Assembly (NCBI GenBank): GCA_902581775.1
Contig: CACHPJ010000011.1
Location: 1 to 33,615, forward strand
DNA: 33,615 nucleotides
Reading direction: 5' to 3'
DNA from: an uncultured Pelagibacteraceae bacterium
GTDB taxonomy: Bacteria; Pseudomonadota; Alphaproteobacteria; Pelagibacterales; Pelagibacteraceae
The notes under the pieces are model-generated. The model did no database searches, was not told the DNA's origin, and saw only the letters and a program-made list of their open reading frames with translations. Of the stretch, positions 6,982-23,969 are shown one piece after another. The position numbers were made by a program, and so were the translations under genes. Numbering within the stretch: the stretch's first letter is position 1; each line of letters starts with the position of its first letter.

Positions 6982-9204
6982 ATGAATATAAAAAAAGTTG
7001 TAGTTATTGGTTCTGGAACAATGGGAAGTGGAATTGCAGCACACTTATGTAATGCAAATATACCTGTTGTATTACTGGATTTAAAAACTGAAATTGCTGA
7101 AAAAGCAAAAGAAAAAATTCTTAAATCTAGACCACCTTTATTATTTGAAAAGGATAAAATTAAAAGTTTAAAGATCGGTAATATTTCTGAAGATTTTAAT
7201 AATGTTTCTGATGCTGATTGGATTATAGAAGCAGTTGTAGAACGAATTGATATTAAACATGAAATTTATAAAAAAATTTTTAATAAAAGAAAAAAAGATT
7301 CCATTGTTTCATCAAATACATCTACAATACCGTTAAAAGTTTTATCGGAAAAATCTACTCCAGAGGACAAAAAAGACTTTTGTATAACACATTTCTTTAA
7401 CCCTGTGCGTTATATGGGATTACTTGAAATAGTTCGAGAAAAAACAAATGATGAAAATAAAATTAATTATTTAAAAAAATTTTGTGAAGAAAAATTAGGT
7501 AAAGGAGTAATAGTTTGTGGAGATACGCCTGGTTTTTTAGGGAATAGAATTGGTGTTTATGCTATGCAGGTCGCGATGACAGAAGCTATTAATATGGACC
7601 TTTCTATTGAAGAGGCCGATGCTGTATTTGGTAGACCTATGGGTATCCCCAAGACAGGAGTTTTCGCTTTATATGATTTAATTGGTATAGATTTAATGTC
7701 GGATGTCCTCAAAAGTTTTCATAAAGAATTACCTAAAGAAGATGAATTTCAAAAGGTTATTTCTGGTTTACCTGTAATAAAAAAATTAATTGAGTCGGGA
7801 TATACAGGCCGAAAAGGTAAAGGAGGTTTTTACAGAATGAACAAATCAGAAAACAAAAGAATATTAGAAGCCCTTGATTTAAATAAAAATAAATATTTTC
7901 CTGCTAAGAAAGTAGATTTAAAAATTAATAAAATAGATCTCTTAAAATTAGTTAATAGAAGTGATAAATATGGTGAGTATGCATGGTCAGTAATATCTAA
8001 AATCATTTTGTATTCATCTTCATTAGTACCAGCTATTACTGATGAATATAATGACATAGATGAAGCTTTGAGATTAGGATTTAATTGGTCTATGGGTCCA
8101 TTTGAAATGCTAGAAGCAATTGGATTAAAAATTTTTTTTTCAAAAATTGGAAATATTAATCTCAATAAATTTTTAAATAATTTAAAAGAAAAAAAAGTAG
8201 AAAGTTTTTACGATGAGAGACAAAAATATACTGATTTACAAACATTAGGAAAGATAAAAAAATCAGTTATTAAATTAGAAAAAAATGACTCAGCTGAAAT
8301 ATTTAGATTTAAGGATTTTAATATTGTTGAATTTAATACAAAAGCCAACGCTTTGGATAACGATTCAATGGATGCATTGAAAAAGGCTACAGATAAACCT
8401 CTAATAATTATAAATGAAAGTATGCAATTTTCTGCAGGTGTTAATCTTAATTATGTAATGGAATTTATTAAAAATAATGATTTCAAATCAGTTGAAAAGT
8501 TCATCAAATATTTTCAAGAAACTTGTAAGCATCTTAAGTATTGTAAACATCCTGTTATATCTGCACCATCTGGGCTAGCACTTGGAGGAGGGGAAGAAGT
8601 TGTATTACAAAGCAATTATGTAGTTACTCATACTAATATAGTAATGGGCTTAGTAGAAACTATTGTCGGTTTAGTCCCAGCCGGTGGCGGATGCAAAGAA
8701 TTACTTTGGAGATGGTCTCAAACAAATGACTCTAAAACTGATCCAGATTATGCTCCATTAAAAGTTTTTGATATTATTGGTTATGCTAAAACAGCTTCGT
8801 CACCCCAAGAGGCAAAACCTATGTTATTTTTAGATGATAATAATAAGGTTATTATTAATAGAAATGAATTATTACCAGCCGCAAGAAGATTGCTCAATAA
8901 AAACGCTGTAATGTCTCCTTCGACCGAATGTAAATTTAATCTATCTGGTAAAAAAGCAAGAGAAAAAATGCACAAAGTACTTGAAGCATTATATAATGAT
9001 AAAAAGATTCTAGATCACGGTATGGAAGTTGGTAAAGAATTAGCATATGTTTTAAGTGGTGGAGATACAGATTTAAATAAAGAGGTGACAGAAGATCAAA
9101 TGTATAAATTAGAATTGAATAGTTTTATGAAATTAGTTGAAAATAAAAAAACTCAAGAGAGAATTACTCATACATTAAAAACAGGAAAGCCATTGGTTAA
9201 TTAA
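6982..9204 (+). CDS. FadN-type 3-hydroxyacyl-CoA dehydrogenase/enoyl-CoA hydratase
   Basis: Bifunctional beta-oxidation protein of 740 aa with the dehydrogenase first and the hydratase last, the order of Bacillus FadN and the reverse of FadB/FadJ. The NAD-binding glycine motif is G10-S-G-T-M-G15; the catalytic pair is H137 and E149 ([14 protein letters not shown]). A second 3HCDH C-terminal domain lies around 330-415 and the crotonase domain around 430-650. Both hydratase glutamates are present: E539 (GGGEEVV) and E559 (GLVETIVG), 20 residues apart as in rat enoyl-CoA hydratase. It starts 6 bp after tRNA-Pro with no space for a ribosome-binding site and abuts dmdC with no gap. In this setting it is the best candidate for hydrating methylthioacryloyl-CoA, although ordinary beta-oxidation is equally possible; no thiolase is present. 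Confidence 0.92.
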
Positions 9205-10965
9205 ATGACAACTTATAATGCACCAGTTGAAGACATGATGTTTCTTTTTGATTATCTAAAGGATAACAAAAATTACAAAGAAATAGATAAGTTTAAAGAA
9301 ATTAATTCAGATTTAGTAAAAGATATATTAGATCAAGCTGCAAAAATTAATCAAGAAATTGTTCACCCATTAGCTAAAATCGGAGATGATAGCCCATGCG
9401 TTTATGAAAATGGTATTGTTAGATCTCCTCCAGGTTACAAAGAGGCTTATAAAAAATTTATAGCGGATGGTTGGACGTCACTATCGTGTGATCCTAAATA
9501 TGGTGGTCAAGGGATGCCTAAAACTGTAAGCACTTTTTTTGAGGAGATGCTGTCGTCTGCAAGTCTATCATTCAAACTATATAGTGAACTTAGTATTGGT
9601 GCATATAATTGTATTCTACATCACGCTGATCAAAGAATTAAGGATAAGTTTCTTCCTAAAATGGTTGAAGGTAAATGGAGTGGTACAATGTGTTTAACTG
9701 AGTCACAATGTGGAACTGATTTAGGGTTAATTAAAACGAAAGCAGTTAAAAATGATAATGGAACATATTCTTTAACAGGTCAAAAAATATTTATTACGTC
9801 AGGTGATCACGACTTAACAGAAAATATAATACATTTAGTTTTAGCAAAAATACCTGGAGCTCCAGAGGGCACTAAAGGTATTAGTTTATTTTTAGTTCCA
9901 AAATTTAACGTAAATGAAAATGGATCTGTTGGTTCAAGAAACGGAGTAAGCACTCTATCTATTGAAACAAAAATGGGTATCAAAGGCTCTCCTACCTGTG
10001 TATTAAATTTTGATAGCGCAAAAGGTTTTCTAATTGGAAAAGAAAATAAAGGTTTAAGCTCAATGTTTACAATGATGAATTTAGAAAGAATTATTGTTGG
10101 TATACAAGGATTAGGTATTGCCGAAACAGCTTATCAAAATTCATTGGCTTATTGTAAAGAGAGAAAACAAGGAAAATCAAATGATAATAAAGATAATGAA
10201 ACAGATTTAATAATAAAACACGCGGATATAAGAAGAAGTTTGATGACTATGAAATCATTAATTGAAGGCCAAAGATCTTTGGCTTTTTGGCTTTCTCAAC
10301 AGGTAGATGTAAGTTTAAATCATTCAAATGATCAAATTAGAAAAGAAGCTGATGATATAGTTTCTTTAATGACCCCAGTAGTAAAATCTTTTTTTTCGGA
10401 TATGGGAATGGAAATAACTAATGAAGCAATACAAGTTTTCGGTGGTTATGGCTACACTAGAGACCAAGGTATTGAACAATTATATCGTGATAATAGAATT
10501 ACGCCTATATATGAAGGAACTAACTCAGTTCAAGCTATTGATTTAGTATTTAGAAAAGTCTTAGCAAATAAAGTGTTGGATAAGTTTATTAATTTGATCC
10601 AAAATGAAATAAAAAATAATAAAGATAATAAAGAGCTAAAAAATTTTATAGATATTCTCGAAAAAAAGATAATTATACTTCAAGACTTTACAAAATGGTT
10701 GGAAGAAAAGTTAAAAGTTCAAAAAGATGATGTTAGCGCTGCTTGTAATGATTTTTTAAAAGTTCTTAGCTATGTAGCATTAGGTTTCTCATGGTTAAAA
10801 ATGTCTAAAATAAGCTATGAAAATTCAAGTAAAAATAAAGATTTTTATAATGAAAAAATTAATACTGCAAAATATTTTTTTGATAAAATATTTCCAAGAG
10901 TTGATAGTCACTATCAATCCGCTATTACTGGTAGTGAAAATATCATGAAAGCTAAATTTAATTAA
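9205..10965 (+). CDS. dmdC: Acyl-CoA dehydrogenase DmdC (methylmercaptopropionyl-CoA dehydrogenase)
   Basis: FAD-dependent dehydrogenase of 586 aa, the long acyl-CoA dehydrogenase form with an extra C-terminal domain (about 460-586) that is typical of DmdC. The N-terminal segment, the FAD/substrate motif TMCLTESQCGTDLG (around 160-175), the FGGYGYTRDQGIEQLYRD segment and the catalytic glutamate E437 in YEGTNS are all visible. DmdC oxidises MMPA-CoA to methylthioacryloyl-CoA in the DMSP demethylation pathway. The call is supported by the immediately downstream acyl-CoA ligase (2 bp) and by dmdA in the same run of genes. Long-chain or other acyl-CoA substrates cannot be excluded from sequence alone. 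Confidence 0.87.
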   Translation: MTTYNAPVEDMMFLFDYLKDNKNYKEIDKFKEINSDLVKDILDQAAKINQEIVHPLAKIGDDSPCVYENGIVRSPPGYKEAYKKFIADGWTSLSCDPKYGGQGMPKTVSTFFEEMLSSASLSFKLYSELSIGAYNCILHHADQRIKDKFLPKMVEGKWSGTMCLTESQCGTDLGLIKTKAVKNDNGTYSLTGQKIFITSGDHDLTENIIHLVLAKIPGAPEGTKGISLFLVPKFNVNENGSVGSRNGVSTLSIETKMGIKGSPTCVLNFDSAKGFLIGKENKGLSSMFTMMNLERIIVGIQGLGIAETAYQNSLAYCKERKQGKSNDNKDNETDLIIKHADIRRSLMTMKSLIEGQRSLAFWLSQQVDVSLNHSNDQIRKEADDIVSLMTPVVKSFFSDMGMEITNEAIQVFGGYGYTRDQGIEQLYRDNRITPIYEGTNSVQAIDLVFRKVLANKVLDKFINLIQNEIKNNKDNKELKNFIDILEKKIIILQDFTKWLEEKLKVQKDDVSAACNDFLKVLSYVALGFSWLKMSKISYENSSKNKDFYNEKINTAKYFFDKIFPRVDSHYQSAITGSENIMKAKFN

Positions 10966-10967
10966 TA

Positions 10968-12596
10968 ATGAGCGTATACGAGAAAAATTTAGATAAAAAT
11001 AAAGCTAATTTTGTACCATTAACTCCACTAACATTTTTAAAAAGAGCAAAAGATGTTTATCCTAATTATGAAGCAATAATTTATGAGGATCGTAAATACA
11101 CCTGGACAGAAGTTTATAAAAGGTGTGTTAAGTTTGCTAGTGCACTATCGAAAATAGGAGTCAAAAAAGGTGATACAGTATCTTTTTTAGCATTTAACAC
11201 TCCTGAGATTTTTGAAGCTCATTATTCAGTTCCAATGTCTGGTGCAGTTTTAAACACAATTAATATAAGATTAGATGCAAAAACTATTTCCTATATTCTA
11301 GAACATGGTGAGGCTAAAGTTTTGGTTGTAGATCGTCAACTTCATAATGAAGTAAAAAAAGCCTTAAATTCTATTAAGCGTAAAATCACTATTATAGATA
11401 TAAATGATGAGTTTGCAGATCAATCAAAATTAGATAAAATTGGTGATTTAGAGTATGAGGATTTTTTAAACACCGGTGACGAAAATTATAATTGGCAAAT
11501 GCCAGATGATGAATGGCAAGCTTTATCATTAAGCTACACTTCAGGAACTACAGGAAATCCTAAGGGTGTTGTATATCATCACAGGGGATCTTATTTAATG
11601 TCAACAGGAAGTGCTACGGCATGGAATATGCCGAATAGACTTAATTTTTTAACAATTGTGCCAATGTTCCATTGTAATGGATGGGGTTATCCTTGGACTG
11701 TTCCTATGTTAATAGGACGTACAATTTGTTTAAGAAATATTGATGTCAAAAAAATTTTTGAATTAATTGAAAAATATAAAGTAACACATTTTGGAGGAGC
11801 ACCAATAGTATTAAATATGATAACTGGTGCACCTGAGAAAGATAGAAAAAAACTAAAACATAAAGTTTTTGTTTTAACAGCAGGAGCACCACCACCAAGT
11901 ATAATTTTTAAGAAAATGAAAAGTCTTGGTTTTGAAGTAATGCATGTTTATGGATTAACAGAAACATACGGCCACGTTACTCAATGTGCATGGAATGAAT
12001 CTTGGGATGTACTTAATGAGGAAAAACAAAATGAAATTAAAGCTCGTCAGGGTGTAAGATACCCAAATACCGAAGGTGTGGCTATAATGGATCCTGAAAC
12101 TATGAAAGAAGTTCCGAAGGATGGAAAAACTATTGGTGAAATAATGATAAAAGGGAACATTGTAATGAAAGGTTATTTTAAAGATAAAGATGCTACTGAA
12201 AAAGCCATGAAAGGCGGTTGGTTTCATACTGGTGATTTAGCTGTGATGAACCCGGATGGATATGTCAAAATACAAGACAGATCAAAAGATATAATTATAT
12301 CTGGTGGTGAAAATATATCATCTATTGAAATTGAAAACACACTAGCGAAGCATCCGTCTGTATCCATTGCAGCAGTTGTTGCTAAACCTGATGAAAAATG
12401 GGGTGAAGTCCCATGCGCTTTTATTGAAATGGTCAAAGATAGACCCGTTACCGAAAAGGAATTAATTTCTTTTTGTAAAGAAACATTAGCTGGATTTAAA
12501 GTTCCAAAAAAAGTTGAATTTTGTGAGCTTCCAAAAACTTCAACCGGAAAAATTCAAAAATTTGAATTAAGGAAAAAAGCTAAAGGGTTAGATTAA
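10968..12596 (+). CDS. dmdB: Acyl-CoA ligase DmdB (methylmercaptopropionate-CoA ligase)
   Basis: ANL-superfamily acyl-adenylating enzyme of 542 aa, the usual DmdB length. The phosphate-binding loop is YTSGTTGNPKG at residues 190-200. The GLTETYG motif follows, then GWFHTGDLAV and the hinge segment IQDRSKDIIISGGENIS. The catalytic lysine is K528 in PKTSTGKIQ. It would convert 3-methylmercaptopropionate, the product of DmdA, to MMPA-CoA using ATP and CoA. It lies 2 bp behind dmdC and 12 bp before the OsmC-family gene. DmdB enzymes also accept other short and medium fatty acids, so a broader role is plausible. Confidence 0.88.
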   Translation: MSVYEKNLDKNKANFVPLTPLTFLKRAKDVYPNYEAIIYEDRKYTWTEVYKRCVKFASALSKIGVKKGDTVSFLAFNTPEIFEAHYSVPMSGAVLNTINIRLDAKTISYILEHGEAKVLVVDRQLHNEVKKALNSIKRKITIIDINDEFADQSKLDKIGDLEYEDFLNTGDENYNWQMPDDEWQALSLSYTSGTTGNPKGVVYHHRGSYLMSTGSATAWNMPNRLNFLTIVPMFHCNGWGYPWTVPMLIGRTICLRNIDVKKIFELIEKYKVTHFGGAPIVLNMITGAPEKDRKKLKHKVFVLTAGAPPPSIIFKKMKSLGFEVMHVYGLTETYGHVTQCAWNESWDVLNEEKQNEIKARQGVRYPNTEGVAIMDPETMKEVPKDGKTIGEIMIKGNIVMKGYFKDKDATEKAMKGGWFHTGDLAVMNPDGYVKIQDRSKDIIISGGENISSIEIENTLAKHPSVSIAAVVAKPDEKWGEVPCAFIEMVKDRPVTEKELISFCKETLAGFKVPKKVEFCELPKTSTGKIQKFELRKKAKGLD

Positions 12597-12608
12597 AATA
12601 ATACAGAT

Positions 12609-13058
12609 ATGACTAAAATCTCAATAGATCTTACTTGGAAATTAAATGATGGAGTCTTATCCCCTGGAAAATATTCAAACAAACATGAAATAAAATTCAA
12701 TGATGAAATAAGTATTAATGGTGATGCTGCTCCTGACTGGAAAGGAGACAAGCAAAATAGCAATCCTGAGCAAACACTTGCAGCCTCTTTGAGCAGTTGT
12801 CATATGATGACATTTTTAGCTTTAGCAGCTAAAATGAAATGGCCGATATTAAGCTACACAGATAATGCAATTGCAACACTGGGTAAAAATTCGAAAGGAA
12901 AAATGTCTGTAACAAACATAGAATTAAATCCAAAGATAACATTTTCAAATAATTTTTTAGTAGATTCTAAAAAAATGAAAGAAGTTCAAGATAGAGCTCA
13001 TCGATATTGTTTTATTGCAAATTCACTCTCTGAAGAGGTGATTGTAAAGATTAATTAA
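12609..13058 (+). CDS. OsmC/Ohr-family thiol peroxidase-like protein
   Basis: A 149-aa OsmC-fold protein. The two redox cysteines of the family are recognisable: one in LSSCHMMTFL (about residue 63) and one in HRYCFIANS (about residue 137). The GDAAPDWKGDKQNSNPEQTL segment matches the substrate-loop region that carries the conserved Glu. Family members reduce organic hydroperoxides with lipoyl or other dithiols. It lies between dmdB and the crotonase-like gene with gaps of 12 and 1 bp, so it is very likely co-expressed with the DMSP enzymes. A role in coping with peroxide or reactive sulfur formed during DMSP breakdown is inference. Confidence 0.88.
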   Translation: MTKISIDLTWKLNDGVLSPGKYSNKHEIKFNDEISINGDAAPDWKGDKQNSNPEQTLAASLSSCHMMTFLALAAKMKWPILSYTDNAIATLGKNSKGKMSVTNIELNPKITFSNNFLVDSKKMKEVQDRAHRYCFIANSLSEEVIVKIN

Positions 13059-13059
13059 A

Positions 13060-13869
13060 ATGAATATTAGAAAAAATAGCAAAATATTAGAAACTTCATT
13101 AACAAATGAAGGGATATTGCGATTAAATTTAAATAGCCCAGAAAATCTTAATGCATTGTCAGAAAGAATGATTGATTTAATGCAAAAAAATATTGATAGA
13201 GCAGCCTCTGATAAAAATGTTAGAGTTATAATTATTTCATCTGAGGGGTCAACTTTTTCATCGGGTCATGATCTTAAAGAGTTAGAAACAGCAAGAAATA
13301 AACCAGATAAAGGCAAGAAATTTTATCAAAAAATAATGAAGAAATGCTCGAAAATGATGCAATCAATTATAAACAATCCAAAACCGGTCATTGCTGAAGT
13401 GGGAGGTGTGGCTACAGCTGCAGGATGTCAACTTGTTGCTAGTTGTGATTTAGCTTATGCGAATGTCTCAGCCAAGTTTGCAACACCTGGAGTAAATATT
13501 GGTTTATTTTGTTCCACTCCAATGGTTGCGATTTCAAGAAATCTCTCAAATAAACATTCTATGGAAATGTTATTAATTGGGGATTTAATTTCTTCAAAAA
13601 AAGCTGTTAAAATTGGACTTATTAATGAGTTATCTGAAGATGACAATCTTAAAGATTTTGTTTTCAATAAAGCTTTATTAATATCAAAAAAGTCAGCAAT
13701 TACTTTAAAAATAGGTAAACAAGCTTTTTATAAACAAATCGATATGAAATTATCTGACGCATATGATTATGCATCTAAAGTAATGGTTGAAAATATGTTA
13801 AAAGTTGACGCTAAAGAGGGTATAGACGCATTTGTAAATAAAAGACAACCTAAGTGGAAAGATAAGTAA
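13060..13869 (+). CDS. Crotonase-fold protein, ECHDC3-like, lacking catalytic glutamates
   Basis: A 269-aa enoyl-CoA hydratase/isomerase-superfamily protein whose core strongly resembles the ECHDC3 subgroup (ATAAGCQLVASCDLA, FATPGVNIGLFCSTP and a C-terminal NKRQPKWKD tail). The oxyanion-hole regions are present (SGHDLKEL and the GVATAAG turn). The two hydratase glutamates are replaced: Q124 at the E144-equivalent position of rat hydratase and G144 at the E164-equivalent. A standard hydration reaction is therefore unlikely. It sits where a DmdD hydratase might be expected in a DMSP cluster, but these substitutions argue against calling it dmdD. Possible roles are isomerase, thioesterase, decarboxylase or acyl-CoA binding; none is established. 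Confidence 0.85.
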   Translation: MNIRKNSKILETSLTNEGILRLNLNSPENLNALSERMIDLMQKNIDRAASDKNVRVIIISSEGSTFSSGHDLKELETARNKPDKGKKFYQKIMKKCSKMMQSIINNPKPVIAEVGGVATAAGCQLVASCDLAYANVSAKFATPGVNIGLFCSTPMVAISRNLSNKHSMEMLLIGDLISSKKAVKIGLINELSEDDNLKDFVFNKALLISKKSAITLKIGKQAFYKQIDMKLSDAYDYASKVMVENMLKVDAKEGIDAFVNKRQPKWKDK

Positions 13870-13898
13870 TTAATTCTTAAAATAATTAAGGTTTTAAA

Positions 13899-14672
13899 TT
13901 GATCACGGAAATAAAAAATAAAAAAATATATTCAACCGATGTTGGCCACTCATATGATTCAAAAAAACCAACAATTATTCTTTTACACGGGAGTGGTCAG
14001 TCACATATTGTTTGGTCATTAACCGACCAGTTTTTAGCTGATCAAGGATTTAATGTATTTACTTTAGATTTACCAGGACATGGAAATTCTGAGGGCCCGC
14101 CATTAAAATCAATTGAAGAGATGTCTCAATGGTTGAATGAGTTTATTGAATACATAGGTATAAAAAAATCAATTTTAGTTGGTCATTCTCAAGGCTGTCT
14201 AATATCTCTTGAACTTGCTAAACTTTATCCAAATAAAGTTGACAAAATTATTTTTATCGCAGGTTCTTATTCTATTCCGGTGAATAAAGTTTTAATTGAT
14301 CTCTCTCTAGCTGGTGACATGGAAGCTTTAAACCTTATGATGAAATGGGGATATGGATATTCTAAACAGTTTATAGGAGGAAATCCTTTACAAAAAATAC
14401 TAAATTCTCCTCGGGAAGTAAGAGAAGTTTTAGCAGTTGATTTAATAGCTTGCAATAATTATAAAAATGGTATTGATGCGGTAAAAAGTATTAGTTGTCC
14501 AACATTTTTTATTTTTGGGGAAATTGATAAAATGATAAAATTAGAGTCAGGTAAAAAATTTGCAAATATGATTAATAATTCTCAAGTACATACAATTAAA
14601 GATTGTGGTCACATGATCATATTAGAAAATGCTTTTGAGATGCGAGAAAAAATTACAGAATTTTTAAAATGA
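13899..14672 (+). CDS. Alpha/beta-fold hydrolase, translationally coupled to dmdA
   Basis: A 257-aa alpha/beta hydrolase with a complete catalytic triad: S97 in GHSQG, D210 in FGEIDK and H238 in DCGHMI. The LHGSGQS oxyanion segment and the LDLPGHGNS strand are also typical. The start is TTG, chosen because AAGG lies about 8 bp upstream and the sequence just after it leads into the first core strand. No signal peptide is seen, so it is cytoplasmic. Its stop overlaps the dmdA start (ATGA), which implies coupled translation and a linked function. Candidate substrates are thioesters of the pathway or DMSP-related esters; the sequence alone does not decide. Confidence 0.88.
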   Translation: MITEIKNKKIYSTDVGHSYDSKKPTIILLHGSGQSHIVWSLTDQFLADQGFNVFTLDLPGHGNSEGPPLKSIEEMSQWLNEFIEYIGIKKSILVGHSQGCLISLELAKLYPNKVDKIIFIAGSYSIPVNKVLIDLSLAGDMEALNLMMKWGYGYSKQFIGGNPLQKILNSPREVREVLAVDLIACNNYKNGIDAVKSISCPTFFIFGEIDKMIKLESGKKFANMINNSQVHTIKDCGHMIILENAFEMREKITEFLK

Positions 14673-15775
14673 ACAATTTTTTTATAAGTAAATCACGTAG
14701 GTTAAGATCAACTCCATTTACTTCAAGAATTGAAAAACAAGGTGTTAAGAATTATACAGTATATAATCATATGTTGTTACCCACGACCTTTTCGACTGTA
14801 GAAGAGGAATATTTGCATCTAAAAAAAGATGTTCAGGTATGGGACGTCTCGGTTCAAAGAGAAATCGAAATCTCAGGTAAAGATGCTCATAAACTTGTTC
14901 AGTTAATGACCTGTAGAGATTTATCTAAATCAAAAATTGGAAACTGTTATTACGTACCCTTAATTGACCTAAATGGAGGAATGGTAAATGATCCATTAAT
15001 TTATAAAGTGAAGGATGACAAATGGAGAGTTTGTATAGCTGATTCAGACGTATTATTATTTGCAAAAGGTATTTCAGCTGGTAGAAATTTAGAAGTGAAT
15101 ATTTTTGAAGCTAATATAGATACCCTCGCTATCCAAGGACCAAAATCTTTTAAATTAATGGAGGAAGTCTTTGGTGATGAAATAAATAAACTCAAGTTTT
15201 TTAAATATGATTATTTTAAATTTAAAAATAACAAATATTTAATCTCAAGATCTGGTTTTTCAAAACAAGGTGGTTATGAAGTACATGTTGAAGACATTAA
15301 ATCAGGTCATGACTTATATGATCATTTATTTGATATTGGTGGTAAATTTAATATTAAGCCTGGTGCACCAAATCATGCAGAAAGAATAGAAGGGGGCTTA
15401 TTGTCGTATGGTAACGACATGCTCATAGGTGATAATCCGTTCGAATGTGGTTTTGAAAAGTCTGTACATTTAGATGCAAAAATAGACTTTATAGGAAAAG
15501 AAAAATTACAAATAATTAAAAATAAAGGAATTTTAAGAAATCTTATGGGAGTGAAAATTGATACAGATCAGATAAATTTAACTGACGTAAATTTACTAAA
15601 TAAAGAAAACAAAATTATTGGTGATTTAAGGTCTGCTGCATTTTCTCCTGACCTTAAAAAGATAGTTGGTATTGCTATGGTAAAAAAAGATTTTTGTAAT
15701 AATAATAAAAATTTTATCATTAATATAAACAATAAGATTATAACTGGAGAAATTTGTAGTTTTCCTATCAAATAA
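14669..15775 (+). CDS. dmdA: DMSP demethylase DmdA
   Basis: Tetrahydrofolate-dependent demethylase of the GcvT/aminomethyltransferase fold that moves a methyl group from dimethylsulfoniopropionate to THF, giving 3-methylmercaptopropionate and 5-methyl-THF. The 368-aa length equals known DmdA. Diagnostic stretches are the RSTPFTSRIEKQGV start, YTVYNHMLLP, VQVWDVSVQREIEISG, LMTCRDLSKSKIG, IQGPKSF, SKQGGYEV, LLSYGNDM, NPFECGF and DLRSAAFSP. These resemble Pelagibacter DmdA much more than GcvT. Residues 197 and 206 are Phe and His here, where I recall Trp and Tyr in the P. ubique enzyme. It is coupled to the hydrolase upstream and is followed after 1 bp by the NDUFS4-like gene. Confidence 0.95.
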   Translation: MNNFFISKSRRLRSTPFTSRIEKQGVKNYTVYNHMLLPTTFSTVEEEYLHLKKDVQVWDVSVQREIEISGKDAHKLVQLMTCRDLSKSKIGNCYYVPLIDLNGGMVNDPLIYKVKDDKWRVCIADSDVLLFAKGISAGRNLEVNIFEANIDTLAIQGPKSFKLMEEVFGDEINKLKFFKYDYFKFKNNKYLISRSGFSKQGGYEVHVEDIKSGHDLYDHLFDIGGKFNIKPGAPNHAERIEGGLLSYGNDMLIGDNPFECGFEKSVHLDAKIDFIGKEKLQIIKNKGILRNLMGVKIDTDQINLTDVNLLNKENKIIGDLRSAAFSPDLKKIVGIAMVKKDFCNNNKNFIININNKIITGEICSFPIK

Positions 15776-19255: not shown

Positions 19256-20209
19256 ATGAATAAACTAACAACCGACATAAAGGCTTTACATGAGGAAACA
19301 TTAAATAACCTCAAAACATCTAAGGCAAATAATACTCTTAGAGCTTATAGGTCAGATTTTAAGGATTTTGGAGCTTTCTGTGCCAAGCATGGCTTTAAGT
19401 CAATGCCAACAGATCCAAAAATTGTATCTTTATATCTAACCAATTTATCTAAAACTTCAAAAATGAGTACTTTAAGGCGAAGATTAGTTTCTATAGGAGT
19501 TGTTCATAAGCTAAAGGGACATTATTTAGATACTAAACACCCAGTAATTATAGAGAATTTAATGGGTATAAAGAGGTTAAAAGGCAGCAAACAAACAGGA
19601 AAAAAACCTATATTAATCAATCACTTAAAGCAAATAATTAATGTTATAAATGAACAAGATATCGATGAAATTGTAAAATTAAGAAATAAGACTTTAATAT
19701 TAATAGGATTTGGTGGTGGTTTTAGACGAAAAGAGCTAATTTCTATTGATCATGAAGACTTAGATTTTGTAGAAGAAGGTGTAAAAATAACTTTAAAAAG
19801 ATCTAAAACAGATCAATTTGGAGAGGGAATGATCAAAGGACTTCCCTACTTCACTAATGAAATTTATTGTCCAGTAGTTAATCTAAAAAAATGGTTAAAA
19901 ACTTCAAAAATTAAATCAGGGCCCATTTTTAAAAGGTTTGTTAAAGGGTCTATTTTAAGCAATAATAGATTAACAGACCAAACAGTTGTTTTGTTGATTA
20001 AAAATTGTTTGAGGTTAGCTGGTATTGAAAATAATAATTTTTCAGGACACAGTTTAAGATCTGGTTTTGCTACAGTTGCTGCAGAATCTGGCGCGGACGA
20101 GAGGAGCATAATGGCAATGACAGGTCATAAAACTACTCAAATGGTAAGACGATATATAAAAGAAGCCAATATATTTAAGAATAATGCATTAAGTAAGATT
20201 AAAATTTAA
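19256..20209 (+). CDS. Tyrosine recombinase/integrase
   Basis: A 317-aa site-specific recombinase. An N-terminal SAM-like core-binding domain (about 1-105) precedes the catalytic domain, in which all active-site residues are identifiable: R157 (GGGFRRKEL), the beta-hairpin lysine in KRSKTDQ, H265 and R268 (SGHSLRSGF), H291 (TGHKT) and the nucleophile Y300 (RRYIK). Both domains are complete, so it is probably active. It is an orphan: no excisionase, phage genes or clear att repeats are visible. It sits between the ogt trio and the glycan cassette, converging on the GT2 gene with a 4-bp overlap. Closest relation to XerC/D or to island integrases cannot be settled here. Confidence 0.93.
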   Translation: MNKLTTDIKALHEETLNNLKTSKANNTLRAYRSDFKDFGAFCAKHGFKSMPTDPKIVSLYLTNLSKTSKMSTLRRRLVSIGVVHKLKGHYLDTKHPVIIENLMGIKRLKGSKQTGKKPILINHLKQIINVINEQDIDEIVKLRNKTLILIGFGGGFRRKELISIDHEDLDFVEEGVKITLKRSKTDQFGEGMIKGLPYFTNEIYCPVVNLKKWLKTSKIKSGPIFKRFVKGSILSNNRLTDQTVVLLIKNCLRLAGIENNNFSGHSLRSGFATVAAESGADERSIMAMTGHKTTQMVRRYIKEANIFKNNALSKIKI

Positions 20210-21042
20210 AAAGTTAATAAAAACTTAATTTTACATTTAATAAAATCAATATAAAAGTTAAGGTTTTTAATAGGATTTTTTAATTCAGATATGTATTTTG
20301 AGCGAGATTTTAAATAATGTTTTTTAAAGAATTTTGTTGTTATACCCCACTTCTTAAGAAAAGTTTTATCTCCTCTATTTTGAATGATTTCATTATTTTT
20401 TCGCGTTGTTAAGGAGCCAAAATGATATACTTTAAAATTATTGATACCTTTAAAGATTCTAACACCTTCATTCCATAACTTCATATTCAAGTCAGGGTCT
20501 GATCCAATACCAGGATTAAATTCCTCACTCATACCACCTATTTTTTCCCACATTGATTTTTCAATCAAATGAGGTGCAAAGTGACTGCCCTGGTGGTCAT
20601 AAAAATTATGGGATTTATATTCTGATAATAATTTTTTTTCATCGAAGTTTTTAATGTCATCTCCACAATTTAACATAATATGACCAGAATACGGTTCAAT
20701 CATTGTTCCAGAAAAATAAAATTTATTATTAACAACTTTATCTAATTCTTTTTTTAAAAATATATCCCATTCAGGTAAAAAATACATATCATCATGAGAA
20801 TAGAGAAAATATTTAGTCGTAGCTTTTTTAAAAATTTTATTTATTGATGAGCATAAACCGATATTTTTATCTGCATAGGTATATTTAAAGTTGTTTTCCT
20901 TAACATAATTAAGAGTTCCATCAACACCTTCGTTAATATGAATCAAAATTTCATGATTATAAAAAGAGTTATTTTTTATGCTTGATATGCATAGTTTCAA
21001 ATAATCTAAATTATTATATGTAGGAATACCAATAGAAAACAT
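20206..21042 (-). CDS. Family 2 glycosyltransferase (rhamnosyltransferase-like)
   Basis: A 278-aa GT-A glycosyltransferase. The N-terminal nucleotide-sugar fold is seen in FSIGIPTYNNLDYLKLCISS, the metal-binding DXD-type motif in YSHDDMYF (about residues 83-90), and the acceptor side in the GIGSDPDLNMKLW segment. The C-terminal end has one short hydrophobic stretch, so peripheral membrane attachment is likely. It would add a sugar to a surface polysaccharide or LPS. It is the last gene of the reverse glycan cassette, 1 bp after the methyltransferase. Donor and acceptor are not predictable. Confidence 0.87.
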   Translation of the reverse strand: MFSIGIPTYNNLDYLKLCISSIKNNSFYNHEILIHINEGVDGTLNYVKENNFKYTYADKNIGLCSSINKIFKKATTKYFLYSHDDMYFLPEWDIFLKKELDKVVNNKFYFSGTMIEPYSGHIMLNCGDDIKNFDEKKLLSEYKSHNFYDHQGSHFAPHLIEKSMWEKIGGMSEEFNPGIGSDPDLNMKLWNEGVRIFKGINNFKVYHFGSLTTRKNNEIIQNRGDKTFLKKWGITTKFFKKHYLKSRSKYISELKNPIKNLNFYIDFIKCKIKFLLTF

Positions 21043-21043
21043 T

Positions 21044-21853
21044 TTAAAATCTTAATAAAATTAAACGTTTAATTAAAGAATATATAAATAAAATCAAAGT
21101 AAAAATTCTAAATAAAACTAAATATTTAAAAAAATATTTCATTTTATTCTTATTTCTTTTGGTTTTTGTTAAGTATCTCTTTTTTTCATAAGAATTATTT
21201 AAAACTAAGTTACTTTCCATGTTATTTATATTTTTAGTTATAACAACAATATTTCGGTAAAAAGAGACATTAGAAATAAATCCATCAAAAGAATTTTTTA
21301 TGTAAAAAGGATTGGGAATTTCTTTATAATTTAAACTGTCACTTAGATTTTTAAAAAAATTTAAATGTGTATTGGCATATTTCAAATCAAAAGGATTTCC
21401 TCCAAAAAAATGATTATAACTAGTTTGGGTATCCTCAATAAAGTATATTCCACCCTTTTTTAAATATGGAAACAAAAACTTAAAACTCTTAATTACATCT
21501 TTTGGAAAATGACTTCCGTCATCTATAATAAAATCAAAGCTTTTATATTTATTTACTAATTCATCTAAGAAAATTAGATTAGATTGTGAACCTTTTAAAA
21601 GATCGATATTTTTTGATTTGATTTGTAATTTTTTTTTATCAATTTCTTTGATGTCAATGCCTACTATCTTTCCTTTTTTAAAGAATTTTGACCAAGCCTT
21701 AACAGAGGAACCATCGGCAACTCCAATTTCAAGGAGTTTTATCTTTCTTCTCTTAAAATTATTAAGATATGTCTCATATATTTTAAAATATTTATGATTA
21801 TATTTATCAGATTTATATTTTTTAAAAAGATTCCTTAATAAAGTATCACTCAT
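21044..21853 (-). CDS. Class I SAM-dependent methyltransferase, probable sugar O-methyltransferase
   Basis: A 269-aa protein with a Rossmann SAM-binding domain: motif I LLEIGVADGSSVKAW (about 40-54), the acidic strand IVGIDIKE, and the post-I segment FDFIIDDGSHFPKDV with acidic residues and a His typical of metal-assisted sugar or macrolide O-methyltransferases. YFIEDTQTSYN follows. An unusual C-terminal extension, very basic and then strongly hydrophobic (about 238-266), may anchor it to the membrane. It overlaps the upstream double glycosyltransferase by 8 bp. Methylation of a glycan sugar, possibly as a cap, fits the context but is inferred. Confidence 0.8.
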   Translation of the reverse strand: MSDTLLRNLFKKYKSDKYNHKYFKIYETYLNNFKRRKIKLLEIGVADGSSVKAWSKFFKKGKIVGIDIKEIDKKKLQIKSKNIDLLKGSQSNLIFLDELVNKYKSFDFIIDDGSHFPKDVIKSFKFLFPYLKKGGIYFIEDTQTSYNHFFGGNPFDLKYANTHLNFFKNLSDSLNYKEIPNPFYIKNSFDGFISNVSFYRNIVVITKNINNMESNLVLNNSYEKKRYLTKTKRNKNKMKYFFKYLVLFRIFTLILFIYSLIKRLILLRF

Positions 21854-23969
21854 TTAAAAAATCCCAAAAAAAGTTTTTTGTATTATATCTAAATGTTTTT
21901 TTAATAATATAATCTGCAATAATAGTCGAATTAAAATATTTAAAGTATTTAACTCTACCATTTCTAGCAATTCTCATTCTCTTTTTATCATCTTTATTTA
22001 TTCTATTAATTTTATCAGCCAAATCATCTATACCTCTATAGAAAATCAATTCTTTATCAGTAAATAGATCATTTAATCTAGTTCTAACATCTACAAAGGT
22101 TAATAAACCATTGCCAACCATTTGTGATATTCTATCACTACTATAATATTTTACCGGATTCCCTTGACTAAGATTTAGGGCCATTTTGGATTGAGATATT
22201 GTTTTAATATAATTGTCAGCCCAAATTGGTTGTTTATTATCCATTCCATAAATATCATATTTAACTGAAGGTGTTTTATTCATTAGCTTCTTTATAAAAT
22301 TTTCTCTTACGTCAAATTTACCTTTTTTTAAATTTCCCCTATGTACGCCGTGACTCATCGCAAAAAATAAATCTCTGTTAAATGATTTTTTTTGATCAAT
22401 TTTTAACTTTTCAAATGAGCTATCAACTGGATTTGGTAAATAAAATATATTGTTAGATTTAAATTTGAGAATATCTGGTGAGGTTGTACAAAAATTTGCA
22501 TCTGTAATTTGAAATTTATCCTCAAATCTCTTACGATTTATAATCCATTCAGAGTCCATTCTATCTAAAAACCATTGTGAAATTCTAATATTTGGATAAA
22601 TTTGTTTTATATAAAATAGTGTATCAACGTTGATTAAGTCAGCATGTCCTAAAACTATAAGATCAGGTAAATAATTACTGACTACTTCGATAAGTTTTTT
22701 ATTTAATTTTTTTGATCCCTTTAAATCATTAATGGATCTATAATAACTTACAATATCGCGATCACTAAATTCTAAAACACTATGATTTAATCTAATAAAA
22801 CCATTGTTTATTCTTCTACCCGTATTATAAAAAAGTCTACCATTATGCCTTTCATTAAAATTGGTAATATGTAAGATTTTTAGTTTTTTTTCAGACTTAA
22901 AAATAAAATTCATTTTATCTTTAAAACTTATATTTTTTCTATATTGATCAATTTTTTTTGATATATGTTTGTGAGTTAGATAGAAGTTTTTTAAAGATAA
23001 TTTTTGTAACTCTCTTCTAAATTTTGGTTTTTTAATAAGATTCTCAATAGCTGAATATAAAGTTTTTGTGTTTAAAGTTCTTAGAATAATGCCATTAGTT
23101 ATTGTTTCAGGAAGCCCCCCTCTATTACTTATAATCACGGCACAGCCACGACTTGATGCTTCTAAGCCTGTACGACCAAAAGGTTCTTCCCATCTTGAGC
23201 AAGCTACAGCTATACTGGTATTTTCAAAAATCTTTAAAACTTTTTTGTGTTCCAAAAATCCAAGAATCTTTAAATTTTTATGTTTAAAAAAAATTTTTTC
23301 TCGGTGTTCATCTCCAATTACGATTGCTTTCCATTTTTCATACTTATTAAGAATCTTAATTACTGTTTTGCCAAATATATCGTAGCCCTTTGCAGAGTTT
23401 AATTTACCAACAAAAGTTATAATTCTTTGTTTTTTCCTTAAATTAACATTTTTTTTAATATTAGCAGATTGTTGTATTACACTTAGTTTTTCGGAACTTT
23501 GTATTAATTTATTTAAACCACTTATAAATCTACTTTTAGACCATTCGCTATTAAAAATAACTTTTGAGCAGTTATATAGTAATTCTAATCTTTCATTTAC
23601 AGTTTTCGATCCAACCATTGAAAGAGGGTCGTTATGAAAATACAAAACTAATTGAGCTTTTGTATTTTTTTTAATTAAATTTATATAATTTGGGCGGTTA
23701 TGAATTTCTATTAAATCTGAACAACGTTTATTTTCAAGTTTTATAAATTCCTCTACATATCTTTTTGATTGACTTTGTAAAAATCTTTTTTTTAACGGTA
23801 TATTTACATAATTTAGATTAAAGACATTCTTATAATCAGTGTTTCCGTATATATTTATATTTTTTTTAAAGTTACTTATTTGAACAGTGTCATTAATGAA
23901 CAATGAAACAGCACCAGCGTATATTGGCGAGAAGTTCTCTTTGTAGGGTAATAGGATCGATATTTTCAT
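21846..23969 (-). CDS. Two-domain glycosyltransferase (GT4-like plus CgeB-like)
   Basis: A 707-aa fusion of two GT-B units. The first (about 1-355) is GT4-like: FVGKLNSAKGYDIF opens the donor-binding half and CSRWEEPFGRTGLEASSRG with GGLPETI forms the nucleotide-sugar EX7E-type motif. The second (about 363-707) begins anew with LKILHITNFNERHNGRLFYNTG and has a CgeB/DUF3880-like acceptor half, then a C-terminal GT1-type half (LNLSQGNPVKYYSSDRISQM, a Glyco_trans_1_2-like region). No membrane segment is seen. It may add two sugars in sequence to one glycan. It overlaps the GIY-YIG gene by 4 bp and is the first glycosyltransferase of the cassette. Confidence 0.8.
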   Translation of the reverse strand: MKISILLPYKENFSPIYAGAVSLFINDTVQISNFKKNINIYGNTDYKNVFNLNYVNIPLKKRFLQSQSKRYVEEFIKLENKRCSDLIEIHNRPNYINLIKKNTKAQLVLYFHNDPLSMVGSKTVNERLELLYNCSKVIFNSEWSKSRFISGLNKLIQSSEKLSVIQQSANIKKNVNLRKKQRIITFVGKLNSAKGYDIFGKTVIKILNKYEKWKAIVIGDEHREKIFFKHKNLKILGFLEHKKVLKIFENTSIAVACSRWEEPFGRTGLEASSRGCAVIISNRGGLPETITNGIILRTLNTKTLYSAIENLIKKPKFRRELQKLSLKNFYLTHKHISKKIDQYRKNISFKDKMNFIFKSEKKLKILHITNFNERHNGRLFYNTGRRINNGFIRLNHSVLEFSDRDIVSYYRSINDLKGSKKLNKKLIEVVSNYLPDLIVLGHADLINVDTLFYIKQIYPNIRISQWFLDRMDSEWIINRKRFEDKFQITDANFCTTSPDILKFKSNNIFYLPNPVDSSFEKLKIDQKKSFNRDLFFAMSHGVHRGNLKKGKFDVRENFIKKLMNKTPSVKYDIYGMDNKQPIWADNYIKTISQSKMALNLSQGNPVKYYSSDRISQMVGNGLLTFVDVRTRLNDLFTDKELIFYRGIDDLADKINRINKDDKKRMRIARNGRVKYFKYFNSTIIADYIIKKTFRYNTKNFFWDFLNE

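Follow-up and report, generated by a model that had tools for sequence, protein, structure and literature searches.

SAR11 bacteria, which are abundant in the ocean, rank among the chief degraders of DMSP. The window analysed here (the whole stretch of 33,615 nucleotides from an uncultured Pelagibacteraceae bacterium) carries an operon that ends in the DMSP demethylase gene dmdA and includes a crotonase gene whose product has Gln and Gly where enoyl-CoA hydratases have two Glu residues. The locus raises the question of what such a protein does among dmd genes, and which protein of the operon would hydrate MTA-CoA.

A dmd operon with two crotonase domains

The operon is a run of seven plus-strand genes at 6982-15775, separated by −4 to 29 bases and probably co-transcribed, in the following order:

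6982..9204, plus strand: FadB-like fusion of 740 amino acids, a 3-hydroxyacyl-CoA dehydrogenase followed by a crotonase domain (Pfam, NCBIfam, alignment)
9205..10965, plus strand: acyl-CoA dehydrogenase, DmdC-like by context (Pfam Acyl-CoA_dh domains with PF12806)
10968..12596, plus strand: acyl-CoA ligase, DmdB-like by context (PRK08162 model)
12609..13058, plus strand: OsmC-family protein with Cys64 and Cys134, paired with the crotonase gene (Pfam PF02566)
13060..13869, plus strand: PRK08139/ECHDC3-family crotonase-fold protein without either hydratase Glu, 269 amino acids (profiles and alignments)
13899..14672, plus strand: alpha/beta hydrolase, retained by most of the SAR11 operons read (Pfam, locus comparison)
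14669..15775, plus strand: dmdA, DMSP demethylase (NF009133, 498.7 bits, cut-off 410)

The names DmdB and DmdC rest on context and domains because the cut-offs of the curated models were not passed. The presumed DmdB scored 862 bits with PRK08162 and 351.8 with the 3-(methylthio)propionyl-CoA ligase model, far under the cut-off of 822, and the presumed DmdC passed none of the 11 curated models that it matched. With the two names understood in this way, the crotonase gene is embedded among dmd genes, as had been claimed from the DNA letters. Locus L033 of an uncultured Pelagibacteraceae bacterium has the same order from the FadB-like gene through two genes beyond dmdA. In Pelagibacter HTCC1062, an alpha/beta hydrolase, a CoA ligase and an acyl-CoA dehydrogenase had already been named alongside dmdA for DMSP (excerpt of PMC3160333). 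Rfam and tRNA scans of the whole window returned two tRNA genes and nothing else. At 19256-23969 a tyrosine-recombinase-like ORF is followed by opposite-strand glycosyltransferase-like ORFs (judged by eye), which looks like a variable surface-polysaccharide region.

The odd crotonase belongs to the PRK08139/ECHDC3 family

The ORF at 13060-13869 starts with ATG, has no internal stops and is in an intact reading frame. Its 269-residue product scored 371.9 bits with the NCBIfam model NF006008/PRK08139 (curated cut-off 313), and its best two solved relatives by phmmer were human ECHDC3 (2vx2, E 2.8e-62) and an M. smegmatis protein (3myb, E 7.6e-60). The intact SAR11 protein belongs to the PRK08139/ECHDC3 family, which bears out its original description as ECHDC3-like. 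An AlphaFold2 model (mean pLDDT 93.8) matched 3myb with a Z of 36.3 and 1.3 Å rmsd, 2vx2 with a Z of 36.0 and 1.3 Å rmsd, and DmdD (4izd) with a Z of 31.2 and 1.9 Å at 22% identity; going by this model, the crotonase fold is retained whole. The family, with members in SAR11 and humans, is old. The function of ECHDC3 was described as scarcely explored in a 2016 paper (excerpt of PMC5009642), and a search of the open-licence PMC literature, by titles and the starts of abstracts, found no assay of a family member.

The hydratase glutamates are replaced throughout the family

Five codons of the crotonase gene are central to the comparison with hydratases:

13429..13431, plus strand: Gln124, in the position taken by Glu144 in rat ECH and Glu121 in DmdD (alignments; equivalence of numbers from an excerpt of PMC3660561)
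13489..13491, plus strand: Gly144, in the position taken by Glu164 in rat ECH and Glu141 in DmdD (alignments; equivalence of numbers from the same excerpt)
13267..13269, plus strand: His70, family-invariant, Ala in ECHS1 (113/113 rows and 2vx2, 3myb, 3l3s)
13345..13347, plus strand: Cys96, family-invariant (113/113 rows and 2vx2, 3myb, 3l3s)
13510..13512, plus strand: Cys151 in GLFCSTP, family-invariant, Pro in ECHS1 (alignments, 113/113 rows)

Alignments with phmmer and MAFFT placed Q124 and G144 on the columns that have Glu in human ECHS1 (8zru) and in 3-hydroxypropionyl-CoA dehydratase (5zai), and the 20-residue spacing is that of the ECHS1 Glu pair; both points had been predicted. The two sites aligned without a gap between them, which rules out a shifted alignment that hides a glutamate. 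The protein thus lacks the pair of canonical ECHS1-type enzymes (rat Glu144 and Glu164), and Q and G at both positions together with the GLFCSTP motif are those of the PRK08139/ECHDC3 family. According to excerpts of PMC3660561 and PMC5651017, respectively, the rat residues correspond to Glu121 and Glu141 of DmdD and to Glu112 and Glu132 of AcuH; the crotonase has Q and G at the DmdD positions (by alignment to ECHS1) and likewise at those of AcuH. The same excerpts report that methanethiol (MeSH) release and CoA-ester hydrolysis were abolished in DmdD E121A, that DmdD E141A showed no hydrolysis and ~88,000-fold lower MeSH release, and that activity was undetected in either Glu mutant of AcuH. 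Set against Q124 and G144, these losses make it very unlikely that the crotonase acts as a DmdD through the established mechanism, in agreement with the original prediction.

Q124, G144, H70 and C151 were unchanged in all 30 SAR11 rows (the window's own protein and 29 relatives, the best 30 of 32 family-type matches), which were fetched by whole-protein search, so that their invariance is free of pattern bias. A wider set of 113 family rows combined 33 from SAR11-order genomes with 80 from genome_contigs (the best 80 of at least 594). Q124, G144, H70, C96, F150, C151 and P154 were fixed in 113/113 and also in 2vx2, 3myb and 3l3s, and Ser152 was retained in 109/113. The 80 genome_contigs rows were fetched by peptide patterns containing Gln124 or Cys151, either of which was enough, and the invariance of these two residues in those rows is partly forced by retrieval; that of G144, H70 and C96 is not. 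A decayed DmdD is ruled out, since the Q/G pair is fixed family-wide and the gene is intact. Judged from these sequences, the double Glu loss is an old, fixed trait of the PRK08139/ECHDC3 family and no peculiarity of this operon.

Counted from the two Glu sites, Cys151-Ser152-Thr153 fall at residues 148-150 of DmdD. The residues changed in the family should sit at the reaction centre beside Gln124, and the invariant His70, Cys96, Gln124, Phe150 and Cys151, with the nearly invariant Ser152, probably line the active site. The CoA site and the oxyanion hole appear, by position, to be kept.

The FadB-like fusion is a candidate hydratase

The first gene of the operon encodes domains in the order 3HCDH_N, 3HCDH, ECH_1 (Pfam), the reversed domain order found also in S. 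aureus FadB. Its crotonase domain has E539 and E559, 20 residues apart, on the catalytic Glu columns, and the pair was also present in 8/8 relatives examined. The best NCBIfam model for the fusion was that of S. aureus FadB (NF052272), at 520.7 bits and so under the cut-off of 999; a double E550A/E570A mutant of S. aureus FadB fails in E. coli complementation, as stated in an excerpt of PMC12369327.

The window's own genome (76.7% complete) gave two ECH_1 matches, both inside the dmd operon. At E 1e-5, just the two crotonase kinds were found in G021 (96% complete) and G051 (92%), which have the same arrangement of the operon as the window (form A, below), and likewise in the single-contig genomes G020, G044 and G053 (99-100%). 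A third crotonase occurs in other genomes of the 60-genome sample described below; five were read, and 0/5 have the Glu pair. At the two Glu positions these five have His/Gly (L150 and L151, of one group) or Glu/Ile (L148, L149 and L152, of another). The FadB-like protein is not universal: G047 (99%) has dmdABC and the odd crotonase, with no FadB match.

Pelagibacter lacks DmdD by homology and alternate enzymes have been hypothesized for methanethiol release (excerpt of PMC5069961), and AcuH has been invoked for SAR116 (excerpt of PMC12262181). We infer that the FadB-like fusion is the best candidate for the operon's MTA-CoA hydratase, and a better one than the odd crotonase. A literature search for papers naming a FadB-like protein as the SAR11 methanethiol-releasing enzyme found none.

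The crotonase mostly co-occurs with dmdA

Distribution was surveyed in 60 genomes, namely the window's own and 59 others of its family, each of the others at least 80% complete. A PRK08139-type crotonase, counted at an identity of at least 48% (14 matches at 27-30% were left out), was present in 32/60. dmdA at an identity of at least 53% was present in 31/60, and 30 of those have the crotonase. Viewed from the other side, 31/32 crotonase genomes have dmdA, 30 of them at that identity and one (G058) with a dmdA cut by the contig end; the DmdA match of the last, G006, is only 39%. One genome, G059 (98%), has dmdA, dmdC and the FadB-like gene and lacks the crotonase and CoA_binding_2, either by joint loss of the two genes or through one assembly gap. 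Of 198 genomes of the order, searched for the crotonase at E 1e-50 and for dmdA at 1e-110, 124 have both genes, 19 have the crotonase only, 16 have dmdA only and 39 have neither. The Fisher p value of 1e-14 for this tie ignores kinship and has few independent events behind it.

In five genomes of a sister family (f2) the crotonase is present and no DmdA match exceeds 39% identity. dmdC and FadB were not found at E 1e-30 in G001 (95% complete) and G037 (86%), both of which have dmdA and the crotonase. A strict MTA-CoA role for the crotonase is disfavoured because in these two genomes it would have no DmdC product to act on. In both (L133 on G001:C6, L134 on G037:C14), dmdA adjoins sbmA and a membrane transporter, and the pathway may stop at MMPA. 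Strict dependence of the crotonase on dmdA is weakened by G059, G001, G037, G006 and the f2 family. The PRK08139/ECHDC3 family is not DMSP-specific, because the f2 and G006 matches are weak and most of the best 80 loci (of at least 594) have no dmdA nearby.

The SAR11 crotonase comes in two alternative modules

The crotonase came in two settings. Form A (at least 66% identity; 8/60 genomes) has the order dmdB-osmC-crotonase-hydrolase-dmdA, with dmdA cut by the contig end in one genome. Form B (24/60) lay outside the dmd operon wherever the locus was read. CoA_binding_2 was located at most 3 kb downstream on the same strand in 20/20 form B loci read, and mtnA was upstream of the crotonase in 8/20. 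Across the 60 genomes, OsmC was found in exactly the 8 form A genomes; CoA_binding_2 was found in 24/24 form B genomes (the G003 copy has an internal stop), in 0/8 form A genomes and in 3 others, each with internal stops. None of the 60 genomes has both forms, and each positive genome of the 198-genome sample gave one crotonase match at E 1e-50. In genus g2, five genomes have form A, eight have form B and none is without the crotonase.

The dmdA region was read in nine form B genomes. Five (L135-L139) have fadB-dmdC-dmdB-hydrolase-dmdA without osmC or crotonase. In G013, fadB is away from the dmdA region (L140, L141); G047 has dmdC-dmdB-dmdA with neither fadB nor hydrolase alongside (L142); and dmdA has no fadB, dmdC, dmdB or hydrolase alongside in G001 (L133) and G037 (L134, which starts just before dmdA). 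Form A with OsmC probably replaced form B with CoA_binding_2, or vice versa, and the alternative modules suggest that the two crotonase forms have equal function. In one SAR11-family genome (L026:2903-3738), a form B crotonase and a CoA_binding_2-like gene are followed by a pair of YeeE/YedE-type genes for sulfur transport, identified by PF04143 for the first and by eye for the second.

Relatives outside SAR11 have sulfur-related neighbours

We surveyed the best 80 of at least 594 loci, one of the 80 being SAR11, and counted as a neighbour any gene on the same strand within 3.5 kb; the counts are raw, uncorrected for chance linkage. Clustering of neighbours undercounts in GC-rich genomes and was used solely to choose query proteins. 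Among these best 80 loci, CoA_binding_2 was near the crotonase in 53, MetY in 34, a dmdB-like gene in 13, OsmC in 10 and a DmdA-like gene in 9. CoA_binding_2 was downstream in 46 and upstream in 7 (six gammaproteobacterial by title or family, one unclassified), and its linkage on both sides points to two arrangements. The MetY linkage was confined to Alphaproteobacteria, and the one MetY scanned scored 826 bits with NF004650 (cut-off 667). A COX15-like gene and a thioesterase occurred anywhere in the locus in 27 and 35 of the 80, respectively; with such conserved neighbours, part of the synteny reflects inheritance.

Of the DmdA-like neighbours outside SAR11 (L034, L036, L045, L060, L064, L087, L095 and L109), two were scanned: that of L087 passes the cut-off of 410 with 532.5 and that of L034 falls below it with 367.6. 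The crotonases linked to dmdA do not clearly form a single clade: the AU test gave a borderline p of 0.0449 against one, for a group that was defined after the first tree had been seen. A TPP enzyme is near the crotonase at L087:3118-8726 and L107:3723-8774. The L087 enzyme is acetolactate-synthase-like, under the cut-offs of the 25 models shown, and stands with a transthyretin-like gene and dmdA-osmC-crotonase; the L107 enzyme was judged by eye.

Candidate functions of the crotonase

The genomic context points to sulfur or methionine metabolism beyond DMSP alone, since neighbours that handle methanethiol, methionine or thiols recur. The active site lacks a carboxylate that could activate water to add across a double bond, which makes thioester chemistry (hydrolysis or thiol exchange) or simple binding likelier than hydration. 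Our preferred reading, to which we give about an even chance, is that the crotonase is an intact ECHDC3-family non-hydratase that acts on a CoA thioester linked to methanethiol or methionine, and that the FadB-like protein is the MTA-CoA hydratase. The crotonase domain of the FadB-like protein (6982-9204), which has both Glu residues, would then most likely hydrate MTA-CoA, and methanethiol would be lost spontaneously afterwards. The substrate of the odd crotonase would most likely be a CoA thioester, or a mixed thiol of CoA, from methanethiol or methionine sulfur metabolism; the reaction could be, for example, hydrolysis or thiol exchange of the CoA ester left once methanethiol has been released. 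This proposal takes family, predicted fold, invariance, gene order, modules and sulfur neighbours as its basis; the substrate and chemistry are a proposed extension.

A broader and rather unlikely version would make the whole PRK08139/ECHDC3 family, from SAR11 to human mitochondria, a methanethiol- or methionine-related non-hydratase that uses a Gln/Cys/His chemistry of its own on CoA thioesters, with SAR11 having swapped a CoA_binding_2 version for an OsmC/dmd-operon version and the reversed FadB serving as the DmdD substitute. A search of open-licence PMC papers for a link between ECHDC3 and methanethiol found none.

It is unlikely that the crotonase is instead a non-catalytic CoA- or thiol-binding partner, for instance a subunit or sensor acting with OsmC or CoA_binding_2. 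Such a role would suit the loss of both glutamates and the constant company of a small partner gene, which is adjacent or within 3 kb in 8/8 form A and 20/20 form B loci read and was found by search in all 32 crotonase genomes; CoA_binding_2 (PF13380) is itself a CoA-binding domain family. However, the invariance of His70, Cys96, Phe150 and Cys151 from SAR11 to human ECHDC3 goes, in our judgement, beyond the usual ligand shell, and the whole crotonase fold is retained in the AlphaFold2 model.

We think it distinctly improbable that the crotonase is itself the missing SAR11 MTA-CoA hydratase, with Gln124, His70 or Cys151/Ser152 replacing the glutamates in a new mechanism. The gene lies in the dmd operon or mostly co-occurs with it, DmdD is missing from Pelagibacter, for which a different enzyme has been hypothesized (excerpt of PMC5069961), and G047 combines dmdABC and the crotonase with no FadB-like protein, its other crotonase having one Glu only. 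Against a new mechanism stand the inactive or nearly inactive Glu mutants of DmdD (excerpt of PMC3660561) and AcuH (excerpt of PMC5651017). Both glutamates are, moreover, present in the operon's FadB-like protein, and the crotonase persists in G001 and G037, where dmdC was not found. An enzyme that decarboxylates, or that proofreads metabolites, and so clears a toxic side product of the pathway, akin to methylmalonyl-CoA or ethylmalonyl-CoA decarboxylase (ECHDC1), is most improbable: some decarboxylating crotonases work without the Glu pair, and a His stands at the oxyanion hole of the E. coli methylmalonyl-CoA decarboxylase, but the methylmalonyl-CoA decarboxylase model (NF008506) scored 117.8 bits, far under its cut-off of 257 and below many other crotonase models, which rejects that identity.

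With one crotonase that has the catalytic pair and another that lacks it, the operon turns the question of methanethiol release into a comparison of two proteins. The odd crotonase's family includes human ECHDC3, and its annotated activity is unsupported by the active site; the bacterial neighbours CoA_binding_2, MetY, MtnA and DmdA provide a first substrate area for ECHDC3-type proteins. The interest of the locus lies in the FadB-like protein as a possible SAR11 methanethiol-releasing hydratase and in ECHDC3-type proteins as possible sulfur-linked CoA enzymes.

Comparison with known systems

The crotonase shares with PRK08139/NF006008, ECHDC3 (2vx2) and 3myb the Q..G pair, GHD/N, ATAAGCQL and GLFCSTP; it differs from the family generally in its place in a dmd operon with osmC. 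The family label of PRK08139, "enoyl-CoA hydratase", is at odds with the family's active site. S. aureus FadB and the fusion at 6982-9204 have the same dehydrogenase-then-crotonase order and a Glu pair 20 residues apart, although the score of the fusion is below the cut-off of the S. aureus model. DmdD of Ruegeria pomeroyi (4izc, 4izd) has the crotonase fold in common with the window's protein and also comes from a DMSP-demethylating bacterium, but it requires Glu121 and Glu141, both of which the window's crotonase lacks. AcuH likewise shares the crotonase superfamily and an origin in DMSP bacteria, yet it requires Glu112 and Glu132, and the window's crotonase is again without both. A published precedent for such a mismatch between name and active site is the Mycobacterium avium "hydratase" 3q1t, which lacks the equivalents of rat Glu144 and Glu164 and was judged misannotated in an excerpt of PMC3584854; that protein was itself assigned to beta-diketone hydrolase-like residues in the same excerpt.
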